Positions 23,696 through 34,023 of a stretch of 64,000 nucleotides of DNA are shown piece by piece. Position 1 is the first letter of the stretch. Every line of letters begins with the position of its first letter. Both the position numbers and the translations under genes were made by a program. Source of the DNA: Piscirickettsiaceae bacterium (GTDB lineage Bacteria > Pseudomonadota > Gammaproteobacteria > Nitrosococcales > Methylophagaceae); the NCBI GenBank assembly GCA_013215775.1, contig JABSQO010000002.1, forward strand, positions 1 through 64,000, in the 5' to 3' direction. Under the pieces are notes generated by a model. The model was not told the DNA's origin. It worked only from the letters and a program-made list of their open reading frames with translations, and searched no databases.

Positions 23696-24553
23696 TTGTC
23701 CTTGGTGTCAGACAATGAAACAGCAACGCTATACATCGTTGCCACTCCTATCGGTAATTTATCAGATATATCACAGCGTGCGATTGATATTTTGCAACAT
23801 GTCGCCGTGATTGCTGCCGAAGATACACGGCATAGTGGGCATTTGTTGCAACACCATTTAATTAGCACTCCAACAGTTTCATTGCATGAGCATAATGAAC
23901 AACAACGCAGTGAAACACTATTACTCAGACTGCAACAAGGAGAATCAGTTGCACTCATTAGTGATGCTGGTACGCCATTGATTAGTGATCCTGGCTATCG
24001 ATTAGTTTCCCTTATCAGAGAACATAATATTCCAGTTGTACCGGTACCAGGAAGTTGTGCCTTAATTGCAGCTTTGTCAGCATCTGGATTACCATCAGAT
24101 AGTTTCGCTTTTGAAGGTTTTTTGCCAGCGAAACAAGGCGCTCGCCAACAGGCATTACAAAATCTCATTGCAGAAACACGAACCTTAATATTTTATGAAA
24201 GCCCGCGCCGTTTACAGGCATCATTACAAGATATGGTGACTGTATTTGGAGAGGAACGTCGCGGATGTTTAGCGCGCGAGTTAACTAAATTACATGAAAC
24301 CATCATGACTAAACCATTAGCTGAGCTGTTAGATTGGGTGACTAATGATAGTAATCAACAACGTGGTGAATGTGTGGTTCTGATACAGGGTGCGGCTAAG
24401 CAACAAGAGTCTGATGAAGCAGAAATAAATCGTGTGCTGACAGTGCTGTTAAAAGAATTGCCAACAAAACGTGCAGCAGTGGTTGCCACCTCACTATTAT
24501 CAGTCAGTAAAAATAAAGCCTATGACATGGCATTGAAACTTCAACAAAAATAA
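23696..24553 (+). CDS. rsmI: 16S rRNA (cytidine1402-2'-O)-methyltransferase
   Basis: TLYIVATPIGNLSDISQRAIDIL, AEDTRHSG, SDAGTPLISDPGYRLV. Confidence 0.93.
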   Translation: MSLVSDNETATLYIVATPIGNLSDISQRAIDILQHVAVIAAEDTRHSGHLLQHHLISTPTVSLHEHNEQQRSETLLLRLQQGESVALISDAGTPLISDPGYRLVSLIREHNIPVVPVPGSCALIAALSASGLPSDSFAFEGFLPAKQGARQQALQNLIAETRTLIFYESPRRLQASLQDMVTVFGEERRGCLARELTKLHETIMTKPLAELLDWVTNDSNQQRGECVVLIQGAAKQQESDEAEINRVLTVLLKELPTKRAAVVATSLLSVSKNKAYDMALKLQQK

Positions 24554-24578
24554 TGATGTTGGGTTAAAATTCACACTT

Positions 24579-24932
24579 GAGATGGCCAGGCAATCGCGTT
24601 GTTAGCATGACTAGCAATGAGGAAAGTCCGGGCTCCAATGGGCAGGGTGCCAGATAACGTCTGGAAAGCGTGAGCTTATGGCAAGTGCCACAGAAAATAT
24701 ACCGCCTAATTCGTTAGGTAAGGGTGAAATGGTGCGGTAAGAGCGCACCGCGCAGCTGGTAACAGTTGTGGCAGGGTAAACCCCACCTGGAGCAAGACCA
24801 AATAGAAGAGCAGTTTACTTCGGTAAACAGATACGGCCCGTATCGTTCTTGGGTAGGTTGCTTGAGGCAAGCGGTGACGTTTGTCCCAGATGAATGATTG
24901 TCCTCGACAGAACCCGGCTTATGGCCATCTCA
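24579..24932 (+). ncRNA. rnpB: RNase P RNA (class A)
   Basis: Core motifs GAGGAAAGTCCGGGCTCC, GGTAAACCCCACCTGGAGCAAGACCAAATAG, GACAGAACCCGGCTTAT; P1 GAGATGGCC/GGCCATCTC closes the ends; rsmI-rnpB-mraZ context. Confidence 0.95.
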
Positions 24933-24940
24933 TTTTTCTT
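24877..24940 (+). repeat. Left copy of direct repeat: 3' end of intact rnpB
   Basis: acgtttgtcccagatgaatgattgtcctcgacagaacccggcttatggccatctcatttttctt; matches 32175-32238 at ~54/64 positions by hand. Confidence 0.8.
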
Positions 24941-25086
24941 ATTAGCCTTAGGATATCAGTGAGCTAGTTTTCTTCTACTATGAGAGGCTAACTTTTGGCA
25001 CACAGCTATCTCACTTTAGGGGCGATATATTATTTTCGTTATCGTTGCCAGCGCATCATGATAAGAGCGTGAATTCTAAAGAGGTT

Positions 25087-25146
25087 AAGGGACTTAAGGT
25101 TCCTCGGCTTTACGGTTGTGCCAGTTCGATTCCGTCCCTAGTAGCA
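25087..25146 (+). pseudogene. Probable decayed tRNA-Leu(UAA) 3'-half (anticodon arm to near-CCA)
   Basis: AGGGA-CTTAAGG-TTCCT anticodon arm with TAA; long variable-arm-like CGGCTTTACGGTTG; T-loop TTCGATT; CCCTAGtagca; no 5' half recognised. Confidence 0.5.
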
Positions 25147-25310
25147 AATATGAAAGTCATAATACTAAACGTTGCTAAGGCTTTTGAGTCCATACATCAC
25201 CTCCCAATTTGATATATCTATCACTCCACTCTCAATCATCCACAAAAGATCAACTCAAGCTAAATACTTTTTTGACTAAAGTACTTGGACAATGTACGCT
25301 CTCGCAAAAA

Positions 25311-25346
25311 CAGAAATAGCAGAAATAGCAGAAATAGCAGAAATAA
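25311..25346 (+). repeat. Tandem 9-bp repeat, four copies of cagaaata(g/a)
   Basis: cagaaatag cagaaatag cagaaatag cagaaataa directly upstream of the 25359 GTG. Confidence 0.95.
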
Positions 25347-25358
25347 CGGAAACGCATA

Positions 25359-25958
25359 GTGAATACATTCTTGCCATTTATAAAAAAAGAAATCTACACG
25401 ACCCATGAAGCGGCCACCATATTGGGTGTAACAGCACGTACGATACAGCTTTGGGCTGATAGCGGTGTCATTAACGTCTGGAAAACACCTGGTGGTCATC
25501 GGCGAATTAATTTAGAGGAACTGGAGAAATTACTTAATGCTGTTTCCAGTATACCTCTATGCAATAAGTCGGAAAAAAATATGCTCAATCTTCTCATCGT
25601 CGAAGATGATGTTGATTTACTAAAGCTTTATCAATTGAAAATATCTCATTGGGATATTGATTTGAATCTAAATTGTGTACGTGATGGTTATGAGGCTTTA
25701 TTGATGATTGGTGAAACATCTCCAGACATCATCATTACTGATTTACATATGCCCAATTTAGATGGGTTTCATATGCTAGATGTTTTATGTAATCGAACTG
25801 AGTTACAGCATACTGAGTTCATCGTTGTAACAGGGTTAAGTCCTGAAGAGGTAGAAGAGAGAGGTGGAATTCCAGAGCGCGCTAAATTATTTCCTAAACC
25901 TACGCCGTTTGAAACGTTAGCATCTATTATTCATCAGCGAAGTAAGCGTGTTTCGTGA
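25359..25958 (+). CDS. N-terminal excisionase/MerR-like HTH fused to C-terminal response-regulator receiver
   Basis: YTTHEAATILGVTARTIQLWADSGVINVWKTPGGHRRI then LLIVEDDVDL…IITDLHMPNLDG…VVTGLS…FPKPTP. Confidence 0.85.
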   Translation: MNTFLPFIKKEIYTTHEAATILGVTARTIQLWADSGVINVWKTPGGHRRINLEELEKLLNAVSSIPLCNKSEKNMLNLLIVEDDVDLLKLYQLKISHWDIDLNLNCVRDGYEALLMIGETSPDIIITDLHMPNLDGFHMLDVLCNRTELQHTEFIVVTGLSPEEVEERGGIPERAKLFPKPTPFETLASIIHQRSKRVS

Positions 25959-25973
25959 TAATGGGGAAATGTA

Positions 25974-27092
25974 ATGCCTTTTGTAAACCTGTTTGATGAA
26001 ATGACTGATGCAGTATTGATTGTCACCAAAGATGGAGAAATCTCATACCGTAATAACTCAGCTATCGAAATGATTGGTGGAGAGTCAATAGATGAGTTTG
26101 AATCTATCCATTTGGCTCGTGTGCTGACAGAGTTACTGGCAGGAAATATAGAGCCTCCGCTTAAAGTCTATATCAGGCGCGGGGTTGAAGTACGGGTAAG
26201 TGCTCTGAAGAATGGCTATTTACTGCTTGGTAAAGATATAACATCCAGCAAGCAATATGAAACACTAAAACAAAACTTCTTTAGCTTGCTTAATAACGAA
26301 CTACGTATACCCATACAGAATTTTGTAGACAAAATATCATTGGTATCAGAACAGTTGTCTAACCTCGATTGTGGTCAAGTCACGATTGAGAATGCGGTAA
26401 AAAATACTCAAAAAAGCAGTCGCGAGATCCAGTATAAAATGGATCGATTACTTTTGCTTTGTGAGCTATATGGTGAGCATAAGATTGTAACCGATGAACG
26501 CATTTTACCAGCAGAACTAATGCACGATGTTAGAGAGATGGTTGCTAGTCAAATCAATGAGAAAGAACTGCTCGTTACCATTATAACCAAAGACATTGAT
26601 GGTGCTGTTCTTTACGGTAGCAATGTATGGCTTTCACTGGCATTACGTGAGTGTTTAAGCAGAATGATTGATCAATGTAGCCAAGGCAGTACTATTTATC
26701 TAAAGCTTGTTCAACATGCTTATTTTCTGACTGTAGTAATCCAAAATTATGGATTAGGAGGGGCGCCTCAGATTGATGATGAAAATGTGGCTCCATCATT
26801 GTTAGATGAAACTTCCTCATTTTGTGTCGACCATAATTTGGACATCGGTTTATCAATCGCCAATATGATAGTCGAATTTCATGGCGGATCACTGAAAGTT
26901 GCTGAAGGGCTTGATGACACAACAATTATAGAGTTGCCTATTGGAGATGCGCGTATATTGTTTAAAGATGAGCTCGGTATCGAACAAACAAAACGATATG
27001 CTGACGATATCTCAACAATGATGGAGCGCGGTTATGTTATGAGCAGCTCTGATAGTGTTGCTACGACGAGCGAATCAGACAATGTTAAATAG
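25974..27092 (+). CDS. PAS-domain protein with degenerate histidine kinase core
   Basis: PAS-like N-term (DAVLIVTKDGEISYRNNSAIEMIGG); HisKA-like FFSLLNNELRIPIQNF lacking His; weak HATPase remnants (IQNYGLGG, DIGLSIANMIVEFHGGSL). Confidence 0.75.
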   Translation: MPFVNLFDEMTDAVLIVTKDGEISYRNNSAIEMIGGESIDEFESIHLARVLTELLAGNIEPPLKVYIRRGVEVRVSALKNGYLLLGKDITSSKQYETLKQNFFSLLNNELRIPIQNFVDKISLVSEQLSNLDCGQVTIENAVKNTQKSSREIQYKMDRLLLLCELYGEHKIVTDERILPAELMHDVREMVASQINEKELLVTIITKDIDGAVLYGSNVWLSLALRECLSRMIDQCSQGSTIYLKLVQHAYFLTVVIQNYGLGGAPQIDDENVAPSLLDETSSFCVDHNLDIGLSIANMIVEFHGGSLKVAEGLDDTTIIELPIGDARILFKDELGIEQTKRYADDISTMMERGYVMSSSDSVATTSESDNVK

Positions 27093-30000
27093 CACAAAAA
27101 TCATTTTCTTTGCGACCTCTATTCTGATGGGCTTGGCAGGAAATATTGCCAATCTCGAACTTTTTTTTGGTGTTAACTTCCTATTTGGCAGCATAGCCAC
27201 AATGCTCGTGTTACGTATATCAGGTTGGGCTTGGGGTAGTTTGGCTGGATTTTTAATTAGCCTATATAGCCTTTATCTCTGGGGACACCCCTATGCCATT
27301 ATTATTTTTACTTTGGAGGCTGTTGTTGTTGGTTTTTTAATCCACAGCAAAAGGTTTGATGACTATGTACTAGCTGATATTACCTACTGGATTGTGATTG
27401 GTGGCCCACTTATCTATCTATTTTACACTCAAATGTTAGAGTTAGATGACCAAGTCAGCTACTTAATTATCGTTAAGCAATCTCTTAACGGCATATTAAA
27501 TACTGTTATTTCCAGCCTGATATTCATTGGTATATTATCTATAAGGCCAAACTTTTCCAGCTTAAAAATTCTGTTAAAACACGAATCTTGGCCATTACAC
27601 AAGTTAGTGCGTGTCGTACTCATGTTCTTTGCTATCGTGCCATTAATCATTATCATGACTATTTCAAATAGTTCTGAATTTAACAAAATTGAAACGCATT
27701 TAGATACTCAGATCAATGAAAAATTAATTATCGGTAAAAAGAGGCTTAATCAGTTCATCACTTGGCATGCCGCTCATGGGGATGTTTTAGTTGACCTTCT
27801 TGCCGACAGTCTCAATGACCAAAATGAAATTAAAAATAGTTTTGCAGACTGGTATTTACTGTCAACGCCACAAGAAATAGAGGGCTTAGTCATTGTTGAT
27901 AGCCAACACATATCACATGTTTTCGGTTCCAATGACTATAAGAATAAAATGGCCGAACTCACAGTAAATGAGCTTGATGCAATGTTGAGACAGGCTCCCT
28001 TAGAACTGAATTTTTCTAAACAAGATCAATTATTCTATCTAATACTACCTCGAAACCCAAAAGGTTTCACGGCACTTGTTGTGATGAAGGATGAAAGTAT
28101 TACTAAATTCTTACAGCAACTTTCTCCTAGCACTAACTGGTTTAGCGCTCTACAAGATAGTAATGGCAATGTGCTTGCGGATAATTCTACTAACGATATG
28201 TTTTTACTTAAAGACTATGTGCATAGCGAAGACACGTCTTATCTTCACCCTAAATTAGAGTCTAATTCACTACTTAAGCATTGGAAAACGTCCTATCGCT
28301 TTTCTGATGTTTCAGTAGCCAGCAATGATGCCATCAGACTTATGTTTGCAACGCCGATGGATGAGTATATTGATCTACTACAGAACACTTACTTTAGAAC
28401 GACCTTAATGACAATTCTTGCAGCTATTTTTATTCTCTTTGTTGCTCCCTTAGCATCAAGACTGTTCTTGAATCCCATTGAAACATTAATCGCTAATATA
28501 AAGCTGTTATCGAAATCCACTGCAAGAGATGATATTACATGGCCAAACTCATTATCTTCAGAGTTGAAATCTTTATTGGATAATTTTAAAAGCTTAATTT
28601 CAACAGTTAACAATAAGCAAGCTGAATTGTTGTTACTGCAAACAAAGAGCAGAAAACTAGCCGACAATGCAGTCTCAAGTGAGTCTTATATTAACCAAAT
28701 CCTGAATAATGTTGAAGATGGCATTGTGACAGCTGATGAACAAGGGATTATAAAGTCTGTTAATAAAGCAATTTATGGTTTATTTGACTATACGGCTGAT
28801 GAACTAATTGGCAAAAACATTGATATTTTTGTACCAGAAACATATAAAAAAGCGCATTCACAAGGATTTCATCGCTATCTACAAGCAGGAGAAAAGCATT
28901 TATTAGGGCTAAGAAGTGTAGAAGTAAAAGCGATAAAAAAAGGCGGTGAAATATTTGATATTGAAATTGGCGTTAGTGAATTAAAAACAGATGAAGAAAG
29001 AGTTTTTATTGCCATCATGCATAACATTTCGCACAGAAAGCACATTGAACACCGATTAATAGTAGAAAAACAGCGGATGTCTCGATTTTTTAATGCATCA
29101 ATGGAAGGTTTGTTTTTCCATGACAACGGCATAATTGTTGATGTTAATCAAACTGGCTTAAGGATGTTTGGGTATAGAAATGATGAAGTTGTCGAACATT
29201 CCTTCTTTGAATTTATCCCAGAACAATATCAAGAGCTTGCCATATCAATGATGGCAAAACATTCAACAGAAACATGGGAGCTTGAAGTTATTAAGAAAGA
29301 TGGCTCACTTATCCCTGTTGAAATACAAGGACAAGAAACGATTATTGATGATAAAAACATTCGAATTATTGCAATAAGGGACATCTCTGAACTTCATGCT
29401 TATCGAACTAAAATGGAGCAGCTTGTTAAGAAACGGACACAAGAGCTTAATGCTATTTGTACCTTAAGCCCTGATGGCTTTGTATTAATAAATCCACAGG
29501 GCAATATTGTTTATGCTAATGACTCATTTACCCAGATGACAGGACTATCCTTTCAAGGTTATGGCAGTATGACAATTGAGGATTTTTACCAGCAATTGTT
29601 TTTGTTGAGTGATGGATCTAAAAAGTTAGACACTAATAAACGTATTAACGGAAATTTACCTTCACAAACGATTCATCTAATTCGCCCTGCTAAACGAGTG
29701 TTAAGGTTTACCTCACGGAAAATGCAAGATCAAGATCAAGATCAAAACCAAAAGCTTCAGGGGACAGTATTATATTTTCATGATATCACTCATGAATCTG
29801 AACTAGATGAAATGAAGAGTGAGTTTTTGTCTACTGCTGCTCATGAATTGCGCACTCCGCTGGCGAGTATTCTAGGTTTCAGTGAACTGCTATTGATGCA
29901 TGACTATGATGAAGTTCAGCGTGTAGATTTAATCGATACAATTCATCGACAATCAGTAAATCTCAAACATTTATTGGATGAGTTATTAGATCTGGCACGT

Positions 30001-30516
30001 ATAGAGTCAAGGGCAGGGAAAGATTTTACTATTCTCTCGACTACTGTTGAGTCTGTTTTGTCTTTGTGCTGCCGGGATATGCGTAGTCTTAGTGGTAACT
30101 GTACATTAAAGAAAAAAATATCTGAAAGTTGGCCAAAAGTTCTGATAGATGAAGATAAGATACTTCAAGTATTGACCAATGTGATTGGTAATGCATTTAA
30201 GTATTCACCTGCAGGTGGTGAAGTCATTATCTCAACTGCAATACGTGAAAGTGAAGAAAAATCTCAATTTGGAATAATTGTTGAGGACCATGGTATTGGT
30301 ATGACGCTTCAGCAAATTAGTCGAGTTGGAGAACGGTTTTTCAGAGTTGATAATACAGGTTCAATTCCCGGAACAGGTTTAGGAATGGCTCTTGTAAAAG
30401 AAATTATAGAAATACATGGCGGTACGATAGAAATAGAGAGTCAGATTGGACTAGGAACAACAGTTTCATTATGGCTCCCAATAGATAATTCGGTTAGGGG
30501 GAGTAATGATGAGTAA
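27082..30516 (+). CDS. Membrane sensor histidine kinase with three PAS-like domains
   Basis: N-terminal multi-TM region, sensory region, TM, PAS x3, EFLSTAAHELRTPLASILGFSEL, NVIGNAFKYSPAGG, EDHGIGM, GTGLGMALVKEIIEIHGG. Confidence 0.88.
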   Translation: MLNSTKIIFFATSILMGLAGNIANLELFFGVNFLFGSIATMLVLRISGWAWGSLAGFLISLYSLYLWGHPYAIIIFTLEAVVVGFLIHSKRFDDYVLADITYWIVIGGPLIYLFYTQMLELDDQVSYLIIVKQSLNGILNTVISSLIFIGILSIRPNFSSLKILLKHESWPLHKLVRVVLMFFAIVPLIIIMTISNSSEFNKIETHLDTQINEKLIIGKKRLNQFITWHAAHGDVLVDLLADSLNDQNEIKNSFADWYLLSTPQEIEGLVIVDSQHISHVFGSNDYKNKMAELTVNELDAMLRQAPLELNFSKQDQLFYLILPRNPKGFTALVVMKDESITKFLQQLSPSTNWFSALQDSNGNVLADNSTNDMFLLKDYVHSEDTSYLHPKLESNSLLKHWKTSYRFSDVSVASNDAIRLMFATPMDEYIDLLQNTYFRTTLMTILAAIFILFVAPLASRLFLNPIETLIANIKLLSKSTARDDITWPNSLSSELKSLLDNFKSLISTVNNKQAELLLLQTKSRKLADNAVSSESYINQILNNVEDGIVTADEQGIIKSVNKAIYGLFDYTADELIGKNIDIFVPETYKKAHSQGFHRYLQAGEKHLLGLRSVEVKAIKKGGEIFDIEIGVSELKTDEERVFIAIMHNISHRKHIEHRLIVEKQRMSRFFNASMEGLFFHDNGIIVDVNQTGLRMFGYRNDEVVEHSFFEFIPEQYQELAISMMAKHSTETWELEVIKKDGSLIPVEIQGQETIIDDKNIRIIAIRDISELHAYRTKMEQLVKKRTQELNAICTLSPDGFVLINPQGNIVYANDSFTQMTGLSFQGYGSMTIEDFYQQLFLLSDGSKKLDTNKRINGNLPSQTIHLIRPAKRVLRFTSRKMQDQDQDQNQKLQGTVLYFHDITHESELDEMKSEFLSTAAHELRTPLASILGFSELLLMHDYDEVQRVDLIDTIHRQSVNLKHLLDELLDLARIESRAGKDFTILSTTVESVLSLCCRDMRSLSGNCTLKKKISESWPKVLIDEDKILQVLTNVIGNAFKYSPAGGEVIISTAIRESEEKSQFGIIVEDHGIGMTLQQISRVGERFFRVDNTGSIPGTGLGMALVKEIIEIHGGTIEIESQIGLGTTVSLWLPIDNSVRGSNDE

Positions 30517-30895
30517 TAAAAAGATATTAATTATCGATGACCATGGTGATTTGAGAAAACTAGTCAGGATGACACTTGCATTTGGTGGCTATGAATTGCA
30601 TGAAGCAGAGGATGGTCAGCAAGGGCTTAGTTTGGCGAATGTTATTCAGCCAAAGGTAATAATTCTCGATGTGATGATGCCGGGAAGTTCTGATGGATAT
30701 GACGTCTGCCACAAAATAAAACTAAATCCTGCAACACAAGATATATTTGTCATCTTACTGACGGCAAGAGGACAAAAAAAAGATATTGAACAAGGAGGGT
30801 TGGTAGGTGCTGATTCCTATTTAGTTAAACCTTTTAGTCCATTAGAGCTTATTGAAAAAGTAAACGAGGGGATGAATACAATTGAAACAATGTGA
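30509..30895 (+). CDS. Stand-alone response-regulator receiver protein
   Basis: ILIIDDHGDLRKLVR…VIILDVMMPG…LLTARG…LVKPFSP. Confidence 0.9.
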   Translation: MSNKKILIIDDHGDLRKLVRMTLAFGGYELHEAEDGQQGLSLANVIQPKVIILDVMMPGSSDGYDVCHKIKLNPATQDIFVILLTARGQKKDIEQGGLVGADSYLVKPFSPLELIEKVNEGMNTIETM

Positions 30896-31685
30896 TGATA
30901 CATTAAGGCTCGGATCGACAATATTTTCCCATGAGTTACTACCTCAAATAAATGCTGAATCACTCAATAGAAAGTTATTTGCCGTAGAACAGGAAAAGCT
31001 AACGGCTTATAAGCAGCTTGAGCGCTATAGCAGCGATATAGTCACAATAATTAAACAACGAGAAGATGCTTATAATGCTGTGGCAATGGCTCATCTTGAC
31101 ACGCTTCAACGGCTTGCTGTTGCAGCTGAATACAAAGATGATGATACAGGTGTTCACATTCTGAGAATGAGTAACTTCTCAGCCATCATTGCTCGCGCTT
31201 ACGGAATGGATAAAGAATATTGTAGATTATTGTTACAAGCCAGCCCCATGCATGATATTGGCAAAATCGGCATTCCTGACCGTGTGTTAAAAAAGCCAGG
31301 AAAACTGACTGAAGATGAATGGGAAGTTATGCGTAAACATCCTGAATATGGTTATGAGATACTTTCTGGCTCTGAAGTTCCTGTGATTATGTTGGCGGCA
31401 GAAATAGCCCTTGCACATCATGAAAAGTTCGATGGTAGTGGTTATCCAAATGGACTTTCCGGTACAGAAATTCCTCTTAGTGGTCGTATCGTAGCATTGG
31501 CAGATTTTTTCGATGCTGTAACAATGGATCGTTGTTATCGCCCTGCTATGACCGATGATAATGCACAATCTTTAATTGAAATAGGTAAAGGAAAACATTT
31601 CGATCCAGAGGTTGTTGATGCGTTTTTATCGGTACTAGATGAGCTTATAGCAACTAGAGATGAGATTAATAAATCTGATTTTTAA
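30882..31685 (+). CDS. HD-GYP domain phosphodiesterase-like protein (TTG start)
   Basis: MHDIGKIGIPDRVL, LAHHEKFDGSGYPNGLSG, IVALADFFDAVT, GKHFDPEVVDAF. Confidence 0.9.
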   Translation: MKQCDDTLRLGSTIFSHELLPQINAESLNRKLFAVEQEKLTAYKQLERYSSDIVTIIKQREDAYNAVAMAHLDTLQRLAVAAEYKDDDTGVHILRMSNFSAIIARAYGMDKEYCRLLLQASPMHDIGKIGIPDRVLKKPGKLTEDEWEVMRKHPEYGYEILSGSEVPVIMLAAEIALAHHEKFDGSGYPNGLSGTEIPLSGRIVALADFFDAVTMDRCYRPAMTDDNAQSLIEIGKGKHFDPEVVDAFLSVLDELIATRDEINKSDF

Positions 31686-31730
31686 TTAGAGACAGTAGAT
31701 TGAACATATAAAATAATAGCGGGAAATAAC

Positions 31731-32099
31731 ATGCAAAAACAACTGCTTATTGTTGATGATGATGCTGATTTGAGAAAGTTAGTACGTAAGATATTAGAAT
31801 TTAGTGATTTTGAAATACATGAGTCTGACAATGGTCAAGATGCATTAAACTTTGTACTCCACACAAAGCCTGAAGTGGTTATTCTCGACATAATGATGCC
31901 TGGTGAAATTGATGGTTTTGAAGTTTGTAGGCAAATAAAATCAAATATAGCGACAGCTCATGTGAGAGTTGTTTTGTTGTCGGCATTATGTTTGAAAGAG
32001 GACCTTCAGAAAGGGGGTGAATCTGGTGCTGATGCCTACTTAGTTAAGCCATTCAGCCCTCAAAGCTTGCTGGATACAGCGAAAATTGTAGGGGGTTAG
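31731..32099 (+). CDS. Second stand-alone receiver protein, similar to the 30509 gene product
   Basis: LLIVDDDADLRKLVRKIL…VVILDIMMPGEIDGFEVC…LVKPFSPQSLL. Confidence 0.9.
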   Translation: MQKQLLIVDDDADLRKLVRKILEFSDFEIHESDNGQDALNFVLHTKPEVVILDIMMPGEIDGFEVCRQIKSNIATAHVRVVLLSALCLKEDLQKGGESGADAYLVKPFSPQSLLDTAKIVGG

Positions 32100-32174
32100 T
32101 GTCAAGTTAGAAAGGTGATGATGAAACGACAAAGTCCAGTAAGTTCTTGTCAAAGGAAAGGGTAAAGAGCTATT

Positions 32175-32238
32175 ACGTTTGCCCCAGAGGAATGATTGTT
32201 CTCGACAGATCCCAGCTTATGACCATTTAATTTTTTAT
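32175..32238 (+). repeat. Right copy of direct repeat: diverged rnpB 3'-end relic
   Basis: acgtttgccccagaggaatgattgttctcgacagatcccagcttatgaccatttaattttttat; P1 3' strand and GACAGAACCCGG core mutated. Confidence 0.75.
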
Positions 32239-32537
32239 CCTACATAGACCTGGATGTTGGTTTTACTTTGTATGTGAATATTAGCTTATAGAGTCAAAGT
32301 GGGTTGCAAAGTTAGACTTCCGCTAATAGTTAATTTTTCCCTCCTTGAAATCCTTTGCTTGAATAACTTTTCTATTTATCTAGCAGTCTTATTTTAATCT
32401 AGAATTTACTTTAACTTATCACGCCACTTTTTTGATAAAAAAGTAGTCTTGTAGGACAATCGAACAGTTAATCTCCCACTTTAATAAAAATACGCTAAGT
32501 CATTGACGGTAAAAGGGGATTTTGTTGTTTTCGATGC

Positions 32538-32566
32538 TTGACACACCCTGATCACACTCCTATAGT
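32538..32566 (+). promoter_or_regulatory. Sigma70-type promoter for mraZ/dcw cluster
   Basis: TTGACA (32538-43), 17-nt spacer, TATAGT (32561-66). Confidence 0.8.
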
Positions 32567-32575
32567 GTCAAAAAG

Positions 32576-32600
32576 TGGGGAAAAGTGGATCAAAGTGGAT
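32576..32600 (+). promoter_or_regulatory. MraZ-binding direct repeats (mra box)
   Basis: TGGGG-N5-TGGAT-N5-TGGAT at 32576, 32586, 32596, just downstream of the promoter and before mraZ. Confidence 0.75.
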
Positions 32601-32621
32601 CATAAAAATGGAGAGTAACAA

Positions 32622-33074
32622 GTGTTTCGAGGCGTAGCAACTTTCAATCTAGATGTAAAAGGACGGATGGCAATACCTGCTAAGTTCCGTAAGCACTTGG
32701 ATGTCAGTTGTGAAGGTCGATTAGTTGTCACGATTGATCATGCTGAACACTGTTTACAGTTATATCCTTTGCCTGAATGGGAAGAGGTTGAACAAAAATT
32801 AGCTAAGTTACCTAGTTTAAATCCTCAAGTACGGAAATTAAAACGCATGTTGCTTGGTTATGCAACGGAATGTGAAATGGATAATAACGGTCGTATTTTA
32901 TTACCAGCGAAATTAAGAGAGTTTGCCGGTATGACAAAAAGTACGGTAATGATTGGTCAAGGTAACAAATTTGAATTATGGGATGAGCAAACTTGGAATG
33001 CCTTGATGGAAGAATGTTTGGAAGAAAATTTTGACGGTATATTACCGGCTGAGTTAGAAAACCTGTCTATTTAG
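32622..33074 (+). CDS. mraZ: Transcriptional regulator MraZ (GTG start)
   Basis: FRGVATFNLDVKGRMAIPAKFR; NGRILLPAKLREFAG. Confidence 0.96.
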   Translation: MFRGVATFNLDVKGRMAIPAKFRKHLDVSCEGRLVVTIDHAEHCLQLYPLPEWEEVEQKLAKLPSLNPQVRKLKRMLLGYATECEMDNNGRILLPAKLREFAGMTKSTVMIGQGNKFELWDEQTWNALMEECLEENFDGILPAELENLSI

Positions 33075-33084
33075 GGGTCTGATT

Positions 33085-34023
33085 ATGATTGAGCGTCATT
33101 CAGAACATTTACCCGTCCTGTTGAATGAGACAGTAGCCGCTTTGGCGATAAAAGAAGATGGATTTTATGTCGATGGCACCTTTGGTCGGGGTGGTCATGC
33201 TCGAGTAATGTTATCTCAATTATCAGAAAAAGGCCGTTTGCTTGGTTTGGATAAAGATCCGGCAGCGATTGCTGAAGGCCAACGATTAGCGCAACAAGAT
33301 TCTCGGTTTAGTATCGAACAATGCTCTTTTGCTGATTTAGCTGAACCGATCAATGGACGCTTATGGCAGGGAAAGGTAGATGGCATCTTATTGGATATTG
33401 GTGTGTCGTCTCCACAGCTTGATGTGGCAGAACGTGGTTTTAGTTTTCAAAAAGAAGGTCCATTAGATATGCGGATGGACCCCGACTCTGGCATGAGTGC
33501 TGCACAATGGTTAGCCACTGCTGAGATGGGTGAGATTGCTGTTGTATTGAAAACATTGGGTGAAGAGCGATTTAGTAAGCGTATTGCTCGAGCTATTGTT
33601 GAAACGCGTGAACAGTCACCATTGACGACCACTACGCAATTGGCAGCACTAATAGAAAAGGCGAGTCCTTTCCGTGAAAAGCACAAACATCCTGCCACGC
33701 GAACATTTCAAGCCATTCGAATCTATATTAATAACGAATTAGAAGATTTAAAGATCGCTCTTGAGCAGTCATTGAATGTATTAGCTGTTGGTGGGCGATT
33801 AGCTGTCATTAGTTTTCATTCTTTAGAAGATCGTATTGTGAAGCGTTATTTCCGTGATCAAGCAAGGGGTGATGATTTTCCTGCTCATTTCCCCGTAACA
33901 GCTGATCAGCTCAATCCTCGGATACGGTTAATTGGCAAAGCGATCAAAGCGAGTGAAGCTGAATTGATAATGAATCCACGTGCACGTAGCGCTGTGTTGC
34001 GAGTGGTGGAAAAGTTAGCATGA
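33085..34023 (+). CDS. rsmH: 16S rRNA (cytosine1402-N4)-methyltransferase
   Basis: HLPVLLNETV, DGTFGRGGHAR, LLDIGVSSPQLD, FHSLEDRIVKRYF. Confidence 0.96.
   Translation: MIERHSEHLPVLLNETVAALAIKEDGFYVDGTFGRGGHARVMLSQLSEKGRLLGLDKDPAAIAEGQRLAQQDSRFSIEQCSFADLAEPINGRLWQGKVDGILLDIGVSSPQLDVAERGFSFQKEGPLDMRMDPDSGMSAAQWLATAEMGEIAVVLKTLGEERFSKRIARAIVETREQSPLTTTTQLAALIEKASPFREKHKHPATRTFQAIRIYINNELEDLKIALEQSLNVLAVGGRLAVISFHSLEDRIVKRYFRDQARGDDFPAHFPVTADQLNPRIRLIGKAIKASEAELIMNPRARSAVLRVVEKLA

Follow-up and report, generated by a model that had tools for sequence, protein, structure and literature searches.

Do genomic islands, whose integration at tRNA and tmRNA genes is textbook knowledge, also dock at the gene for RNase P RNA? 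The question is raised by a locus in a Piscirickettsiaceae bacterium, where six signalling genes lie between rnpB and mraZ, and where the 3' tail of rnpB recurs just before mraZ (Table 1). Site-specific integration at the rnpB 3' end had been proposed for this interval in an initial annotation. Here, we analyzed a 64,000-nt stretch of contig JABSQO010000002.1 (referred to as the window), which belongs to a 2.2-Mb assembly from a genus represented mostly by draft genomes. The rsmI-rnpB-mraZ region was compared across ~50 relatives that were collected by RsmI and comprise Methylophaga and kin, several of them deposited as Piscirickettsiaceae or Gammaproteobacteria MAGs.

A decayed copy of the rnpB tail precedes mraZ

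Direct alignment of the two tail copies showed that they are in the same orientation and identical at 57/68 positions (84%) without a gap, while the runner-up 68-mer match to the rnpB tail reached 34/68 when the full 64 kb was scanned on both strands. Using blastn, the right copy was recovered with an E value of 5.9e-13. The slightly shifted 64-nt pair of the initial annotation (24877-24940 and 32175-32238) gave exactly 54/64 identities on recount. The left copy lies within an rnpB gene that is intact, as had been claimed; it matches the RNase P model over its full length with both P1 strands aligned, indicating that the target gene is restored. The right copy is the sole other rnpB-like place that an Rfam search found in the same genome (15.3 bits; E = 0.0098), and the same type of search on the right spacer returned the rnpB tail and otherwise only sub-threshold chance matches. 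Thus, direct repeats of the 3' end of the target gene are present at both ends of the interval. A GTTCTTG motif was also described as preserved upstream of both copies. Its equal spacing was confirmed, but the intervening 25 nt do not match and the spacing may be due to chance.

Table 1. Features of the rsmI-rnpB-mraZ-rsmH region in the window
Feature	Position	Strand	Evidence
rsmI (16S rRNA methyltransferase), conserved left flank	23696..24553	+	Pfam TP_methylase and RsmI_C; same position in relatives
rnpB, intact class A RNase P RNA; 3' end is attL side of junction	24578..24936	+	Rfam RF00010, 337.6 bits
Left att repeat copy (rnpB 3' tail)	24870..24937	+	57/68 to 32168-32235
Fossil of element left end and integrase start	24942..25073	+	DNA alignment to left ends in relatives
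Gene A, MerR-type HTH and response regulator receiver	25359..25958	+	Pfam
Gene B, histidine-kinase-like protein	25974..27092	+	Weak HATPase_c, under curated cut-off
Gene C, PAS-PAS-PAS histidine kinase	27055..30516	+	Pfam PAS, HisKA, HATPase_c
Gene D, receiver-only response regulator	30506..30895	+	Pfam
Gene E, HD-domain protein of HD-GYP type	30882..31685	+	Pfam HD_5, HD
Gene F, receiver-only response regulator, 51% identical to D	31731..32099	+	Pfam; tblastn
Right att repeat copy (attR), decayed rnpB tail	32168..32235	+	Alignment, Rfam
Original rnpB-mraZ spacer, displaced by insertion	32239..32621	+	Aligns with empty-site spacers of relatives, z 16-33
mraZ, conserved right flank	32622..33074	+	tblastn in relatives
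rsmH, after mraZ	33085-34023		

Between the two copies, a short 9-nt tandem repeat (AATAGCAGA-like) is located at 25306-25352, immediately 5' of gene A. A tRNA-like stretch at ~25080-25140 was discarded, as neither a tRNA nor a credible Rfam family was found there.

Empty and loaded sites in relatives

The order rsmI-rnpB on one side and mraZ-rsmH on the other had been described as common, and tblastn placed rsmI and mraZ likewise in the relatives. In many Methylophagaceae, the site is empty, i.e., rnpB lies directly beside mraZ with a gap of 273-383 nt and nothing between. In other relatives, the site is loaded with 1 to >13 kb of unrelated genes. Insertion at the rnpB 3' end is expected to displace the old tail together with the old spacer to the far side, and this is what the junction test shows: the window DNA from the right tail to mraZ aligned with empty-site spacers from nine relatives (z 16-33), and the DNA following the left rnpB did not match empty-site spacers (z <3). 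Similarly, the sequence 3' of the right tail in Methylophaga muralis (G037) matches the empty site of its sister G045.

The initial annotation had suggested looking for different cargo flanked by this repeat, and such cargo was found. Second rnpB tails are present in G030, G037, G006, G027, G011, and G018, and a diverged one in G055. Right tail copies are ~50 to 112 nt long in Methylophagaceae and ~20 nt in Escherichia coli. The tail pairs in the relatives are near-identical, and in SNP comparisons the copies were too similar to assign them to donor or host. Some tails could not be linked to their own rnpB because the draft genomes break at rnpB. Of the loci compared, that of G021 is closest to the window genome in rnpB and RsmI identity. 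In G006 (L090:2590-2700) and G018 (L071:1-120; both as oriented), a second element left end is located directly 3' of the displaced rnpB tail, and elements are apparently stacked in tandem at rnpB in these two genomes.

Several loaded loci have no integrase and mostly no tail. Among them, five Methylophaga genomes (L084, L105, L108, L110, and L113) carry a cytochrome c oxidase operon between rnpB and mraZ, which was annotated in L084 and is represented by a homologous cluster in the other four. In L108, a strongly diverged rnpB tail is retained; the weak relics of a tail seen in L066 and L113 were not counted, that in L066 being unsupported by Rfam. These integrase-less loci indicate that the rnpB-mraZ spacer also gains genes by other routes.

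A tyrosine integrase beside rnpB and its fossil in the window

An ORF that begins ~58 nt downstream of rnpB, in the same orientation, encodes 413 aa in Methylophaga sp. 41_12_T18 (G030) and 430 aa in M. muralis. Both ORFs have DUF6538 (PF20172) and Phage_integrase (PF00589) domains based on Pfam, and both contain all of the catalytic residues R, K, HxxR, H, and Y (ARRSE, GKTKAA, HSLRHT, GHEK, and DRYTH). The second rnpB tail lies 7.5 kb downstream and just 5' of mraZ in G030, and at the mraZ end on a separate contig in M. muralis. In a family-wide protein search, integrase matches of at least 44% identity were exclusively beside rnpB, and among phage and plasmid records no close relative was found except in E. 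coli. The gene is intact in G030 and M. muralis, runs into a contig edge in G018, is split in G021, and persists as N-terminal relics in G006, G025, and G020. An inverted repeat (GTTAG...CTAAC; e.g., L073:2282-2345, oriented) is also retained in the stretch from rnpB to the integrase start of most elements and is a possible terminator or regulatory hairpin. The intact or near-intact elements L073 (G030) and L077 (M. muralis) carry candidate anti-phage genes (PADLOC Hp1/Hp2; IetS-like).

Comparison of the 260 nt following each rnpB with the left ends of five elements gave the window z values of 8.3 (L057), 12.4 (L073), 11.7 (L059), 4.1 (L069), and -0.7 (L076), and empty sites remained at z <4. 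With whole-spacer dinucleotide shuffles, the window fossil had z values of 6.2 (L059) and 8.2 (L073). In one frame, 25019-25072 reads GAIYYFRYRCQRIMIRA followed by a stop codon (alternatively given as GAIYYFRYRCQRI before the stop), which corresponds to DVYYFRYVLPDHI in G006. The initial annotation had noted that the interval holds no recombinase ORF and that the integrase is gone. The first part holds, since there is no intact recombinase ORF in the interval; the second needs correction, as a fossil of ~130 nt persists right after rnpB. The window copy is therefore classed as a decayed remnant rather than a live island, and, judging from this alignment, its integrase has decayed in place.

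Paired repeats overlap the integrase start

In well-kept left ends, TGGTACNN occurs twice with a 12-nt spacing over the integrase start codon, and at seven loci an equivalent pair is located within the right end; i.e., paired repeats TGGTAC-N6-TGGTAC mark both element ends. The left pair is translated as the integrase start MV[Q/H/R]xLV[Q/H/R], in which the two copies tend to covary (Q/Q, H/H, or R/R). Repeats on both sides of the core were found in G030, G037, G006, and G027, while the window has kept no repeat pair and no significant relic of the right-arm repeats.

A pattern drawn from the element ends gave 14 exact matches in 57 genomes, compared with 2 for the reversed control. All 14 were beside rnpB tails (14/14). 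This full agreement is to some extent expected of a pattern derived from these very loci, but the lack of matches elsewhere is not. Over 369 genomes of the class, the remaining matches were coding coincidences or belonged to a tRNA-Thr island. The latter is in G236 (L238 and L240), where TGGTACCAAAACTGGTACCA-type pairs are located at two places separated by 234 kb, a tRNA-Thr and the neighbourhood of another integrase, possibly the ends of one large island. The similar pair at this island indicates that the motif by itself is not rnpB-specific.

Lambda-type (heterobivalent) tyrosine recombinases act on a core repeat and on arm sites further out on both sides. The elements described here resemble these systems in having a core repeat with short outer, arm-site-like repeats on both sides, and by analogy the paired repeats are putative arm-type binding sites. 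They differ in their left pair, which extends over the start of the integrase gene and forms part of its reading frame.

A model for integration at the rnpB 3' end

Based on these observations, we suggest that a tyrosine recombinase with DUF6538 and Phage_integrase domains would join a circular element, whose attP bears a copy of the rnpB 3' end, to the 3' end of chromosomal rnpB. The element-borne copy would become the new 3' end of the gene, leaving rnpB whole, and the former chromosomal tail, with the mraZ spacer still attached to it, would end up at the distal end as attR. In this scheme, catalysis by the recombinase, the exact crossover point, and the side of origin of each tail are predictions, and the integrases of the relatives and of E. 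coli presumably carry out the reaction. In the window, later decay would have reduced the integrase to ~130 nt, removed the arm repeats, and mutated the right tail, with the signalling genes being kept.

The empty sites, the bracketed cargo in relatives, and the continuity of the right flank all speak for the original proposal, as do the tail repeat itself, the integrases beside rnpB, the left-end fossil, the repeat pairs at both element ends, and the like arrangement in E. coli. Against it, the window lacks an intact recombinase, a repeat pair, and a right-arm relic; the left-end fossil is strong against three of the five reference ends and absent against L076; several relatives are loaded at this spacer with no integrase and mostly no tail; and the cargo module is also found elsewhere in two relatives. 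Weighing both sides, we conclude with high confidence that the interval is what remains of a genomic island that entered the rnpB 3' end by site-specific integration.

Origin of the signalling cargo

Among the ~50 relatives, the six signalling genes of the window were not found at rnpB, save for generic kinase and receiver similarity. A diverged version of this signalling module (25-55% identity) occupies non-rnpB loci in G048 and G020 (L247 and L248), with a MerR-receiver protein, kinase B, a PAS kinase, and receivers in both and an HD-GYP protein in L248. Because similar modules occupy other loci in these genomes, the signalling genes may be later arrivals: an element would have landed at rnpB and lost its genes, and the signalling cluster would have entered afterwards, so that the scar is real and the cargo foreign. 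We regard this order of events as a possibility of some weight, albeit the less probable one. It is a variant of the model above, and the integration event is common to both. It agrees with a module that is not tied to rnpB, with the relatives loaded at the spacer without integrase or tail, and with intact elements that bear genes of other kinds, such as Hp1/Hp2 and IetS-like genes. However, the two repeats bracket the signalling genes precisely, signalling cargo of the PAS-GGDEF-EAL type adjoins an rnpB tail in G006, and no transposase ORF was recognized in the interval based on the ORF list and Pfam. We tentatively infer that genes A-F arrived with the rnpB element.

A counterpart at E. coli rnpB

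In a record of E. coli H240, an integrase that is 34% identical over 360 aa to the Methylophagaceae enzyme is encoded directly 3' of rnpB. This record (NZ_OL790696.1) is labeled as a 4.8-Mb plasmid but carries rnpB and is evidently the chromosome. Most of the stretch is carried by 18/5,426 E. coli genomes, and its cargo includes a YagK/YfjJ protein, a Hin-like recombinase, an alternative flagellin, and a repressor. Judged from this gene content, the island appears to be the flk-type alternative flagellin islet (Feng 2008 and Liu 2012, as cited in PMC5422975 and PMC7018530). The islet and the Methylophagaceae elements have in common a tyrosine integrase directly 3' of an intact rnpB, a sporadic presence, and repeat clusters with a 12-nt spacing, one where the integrase starts and one close to the right tail: the left end reads TGTGACACAGAC-TGTGATACA, and the right end has three 12-nt-spaced copies before CTTATCGGTCAG. 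The islet differs in its cargo, in an integrase without a DUF6538 match in Pfam, and in a right tail beside the repeats that matches rnpB over only ~20 nt (CTTATCGGTCAG...). The loci in which this islet is integrated at rnpB are L232:5008-7068 and L241-L243.

Partial tandem repeats of the rnpB tail are also found downstream of E. coli rnpB, and the right copy in the window might likewise have arisen by segmental duplication through ordinary recombination, independently of an integrase. We consider this very unlikely given the integrase left-end fossil in the window, the empty sites with a continuous right flank, and the intact elements of the same layout in relatives. Two further readings of the right copy, which lies upstream of mraZ, can practically be dismissed, namely a conserved small RNA without relation to rnpB and an element that regulates mraZ, as the mraZ spacer of empty-site relatives lacks this copy (best matches at chance level) and the rnpB tail is its sole plausible Rfam match.

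Discussion

The TIGER/Islander resource of genomic islands counts tRNA/tmRNA, protein-coding, and intergenic targets only (PMC12424338). The islands at tRNA and tmRNA 3' ends described there share with the rnpB islands a tyrosine integrase beside the target, a target gene restored by the element, direct repeats, and empty sites; the difference is that the target here is the RNase P RNA gene. In the open-licence literature, we found no report of rnpB as attB or integration target.

Together, our data make it likely that there is an rnpB-specific integrase lineage, in Methylophagaceae and E. coli at least, that has docked at rnpB repeatedly, stacks in tandem, carries defence, signalling, or flagellin cargo, and uses binding repeats that double as the first integrase codons. 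Its target is the gene of an essential ribozyme and lies outside the target classes counted in PMC12424338. With enzyme, target, and repeat signature defined, such islands can be sought in other genomes and their ends predicted. Targeting of rnpB offers an explanation for why the E. coli flagellin islet lies where it does, and rnpB islands may explain why draft assemblies of this group often break inside or just 3' of rnpB. Finally, rnpB islands offer a way to test how cells tolerate integration into an indispensable gene.
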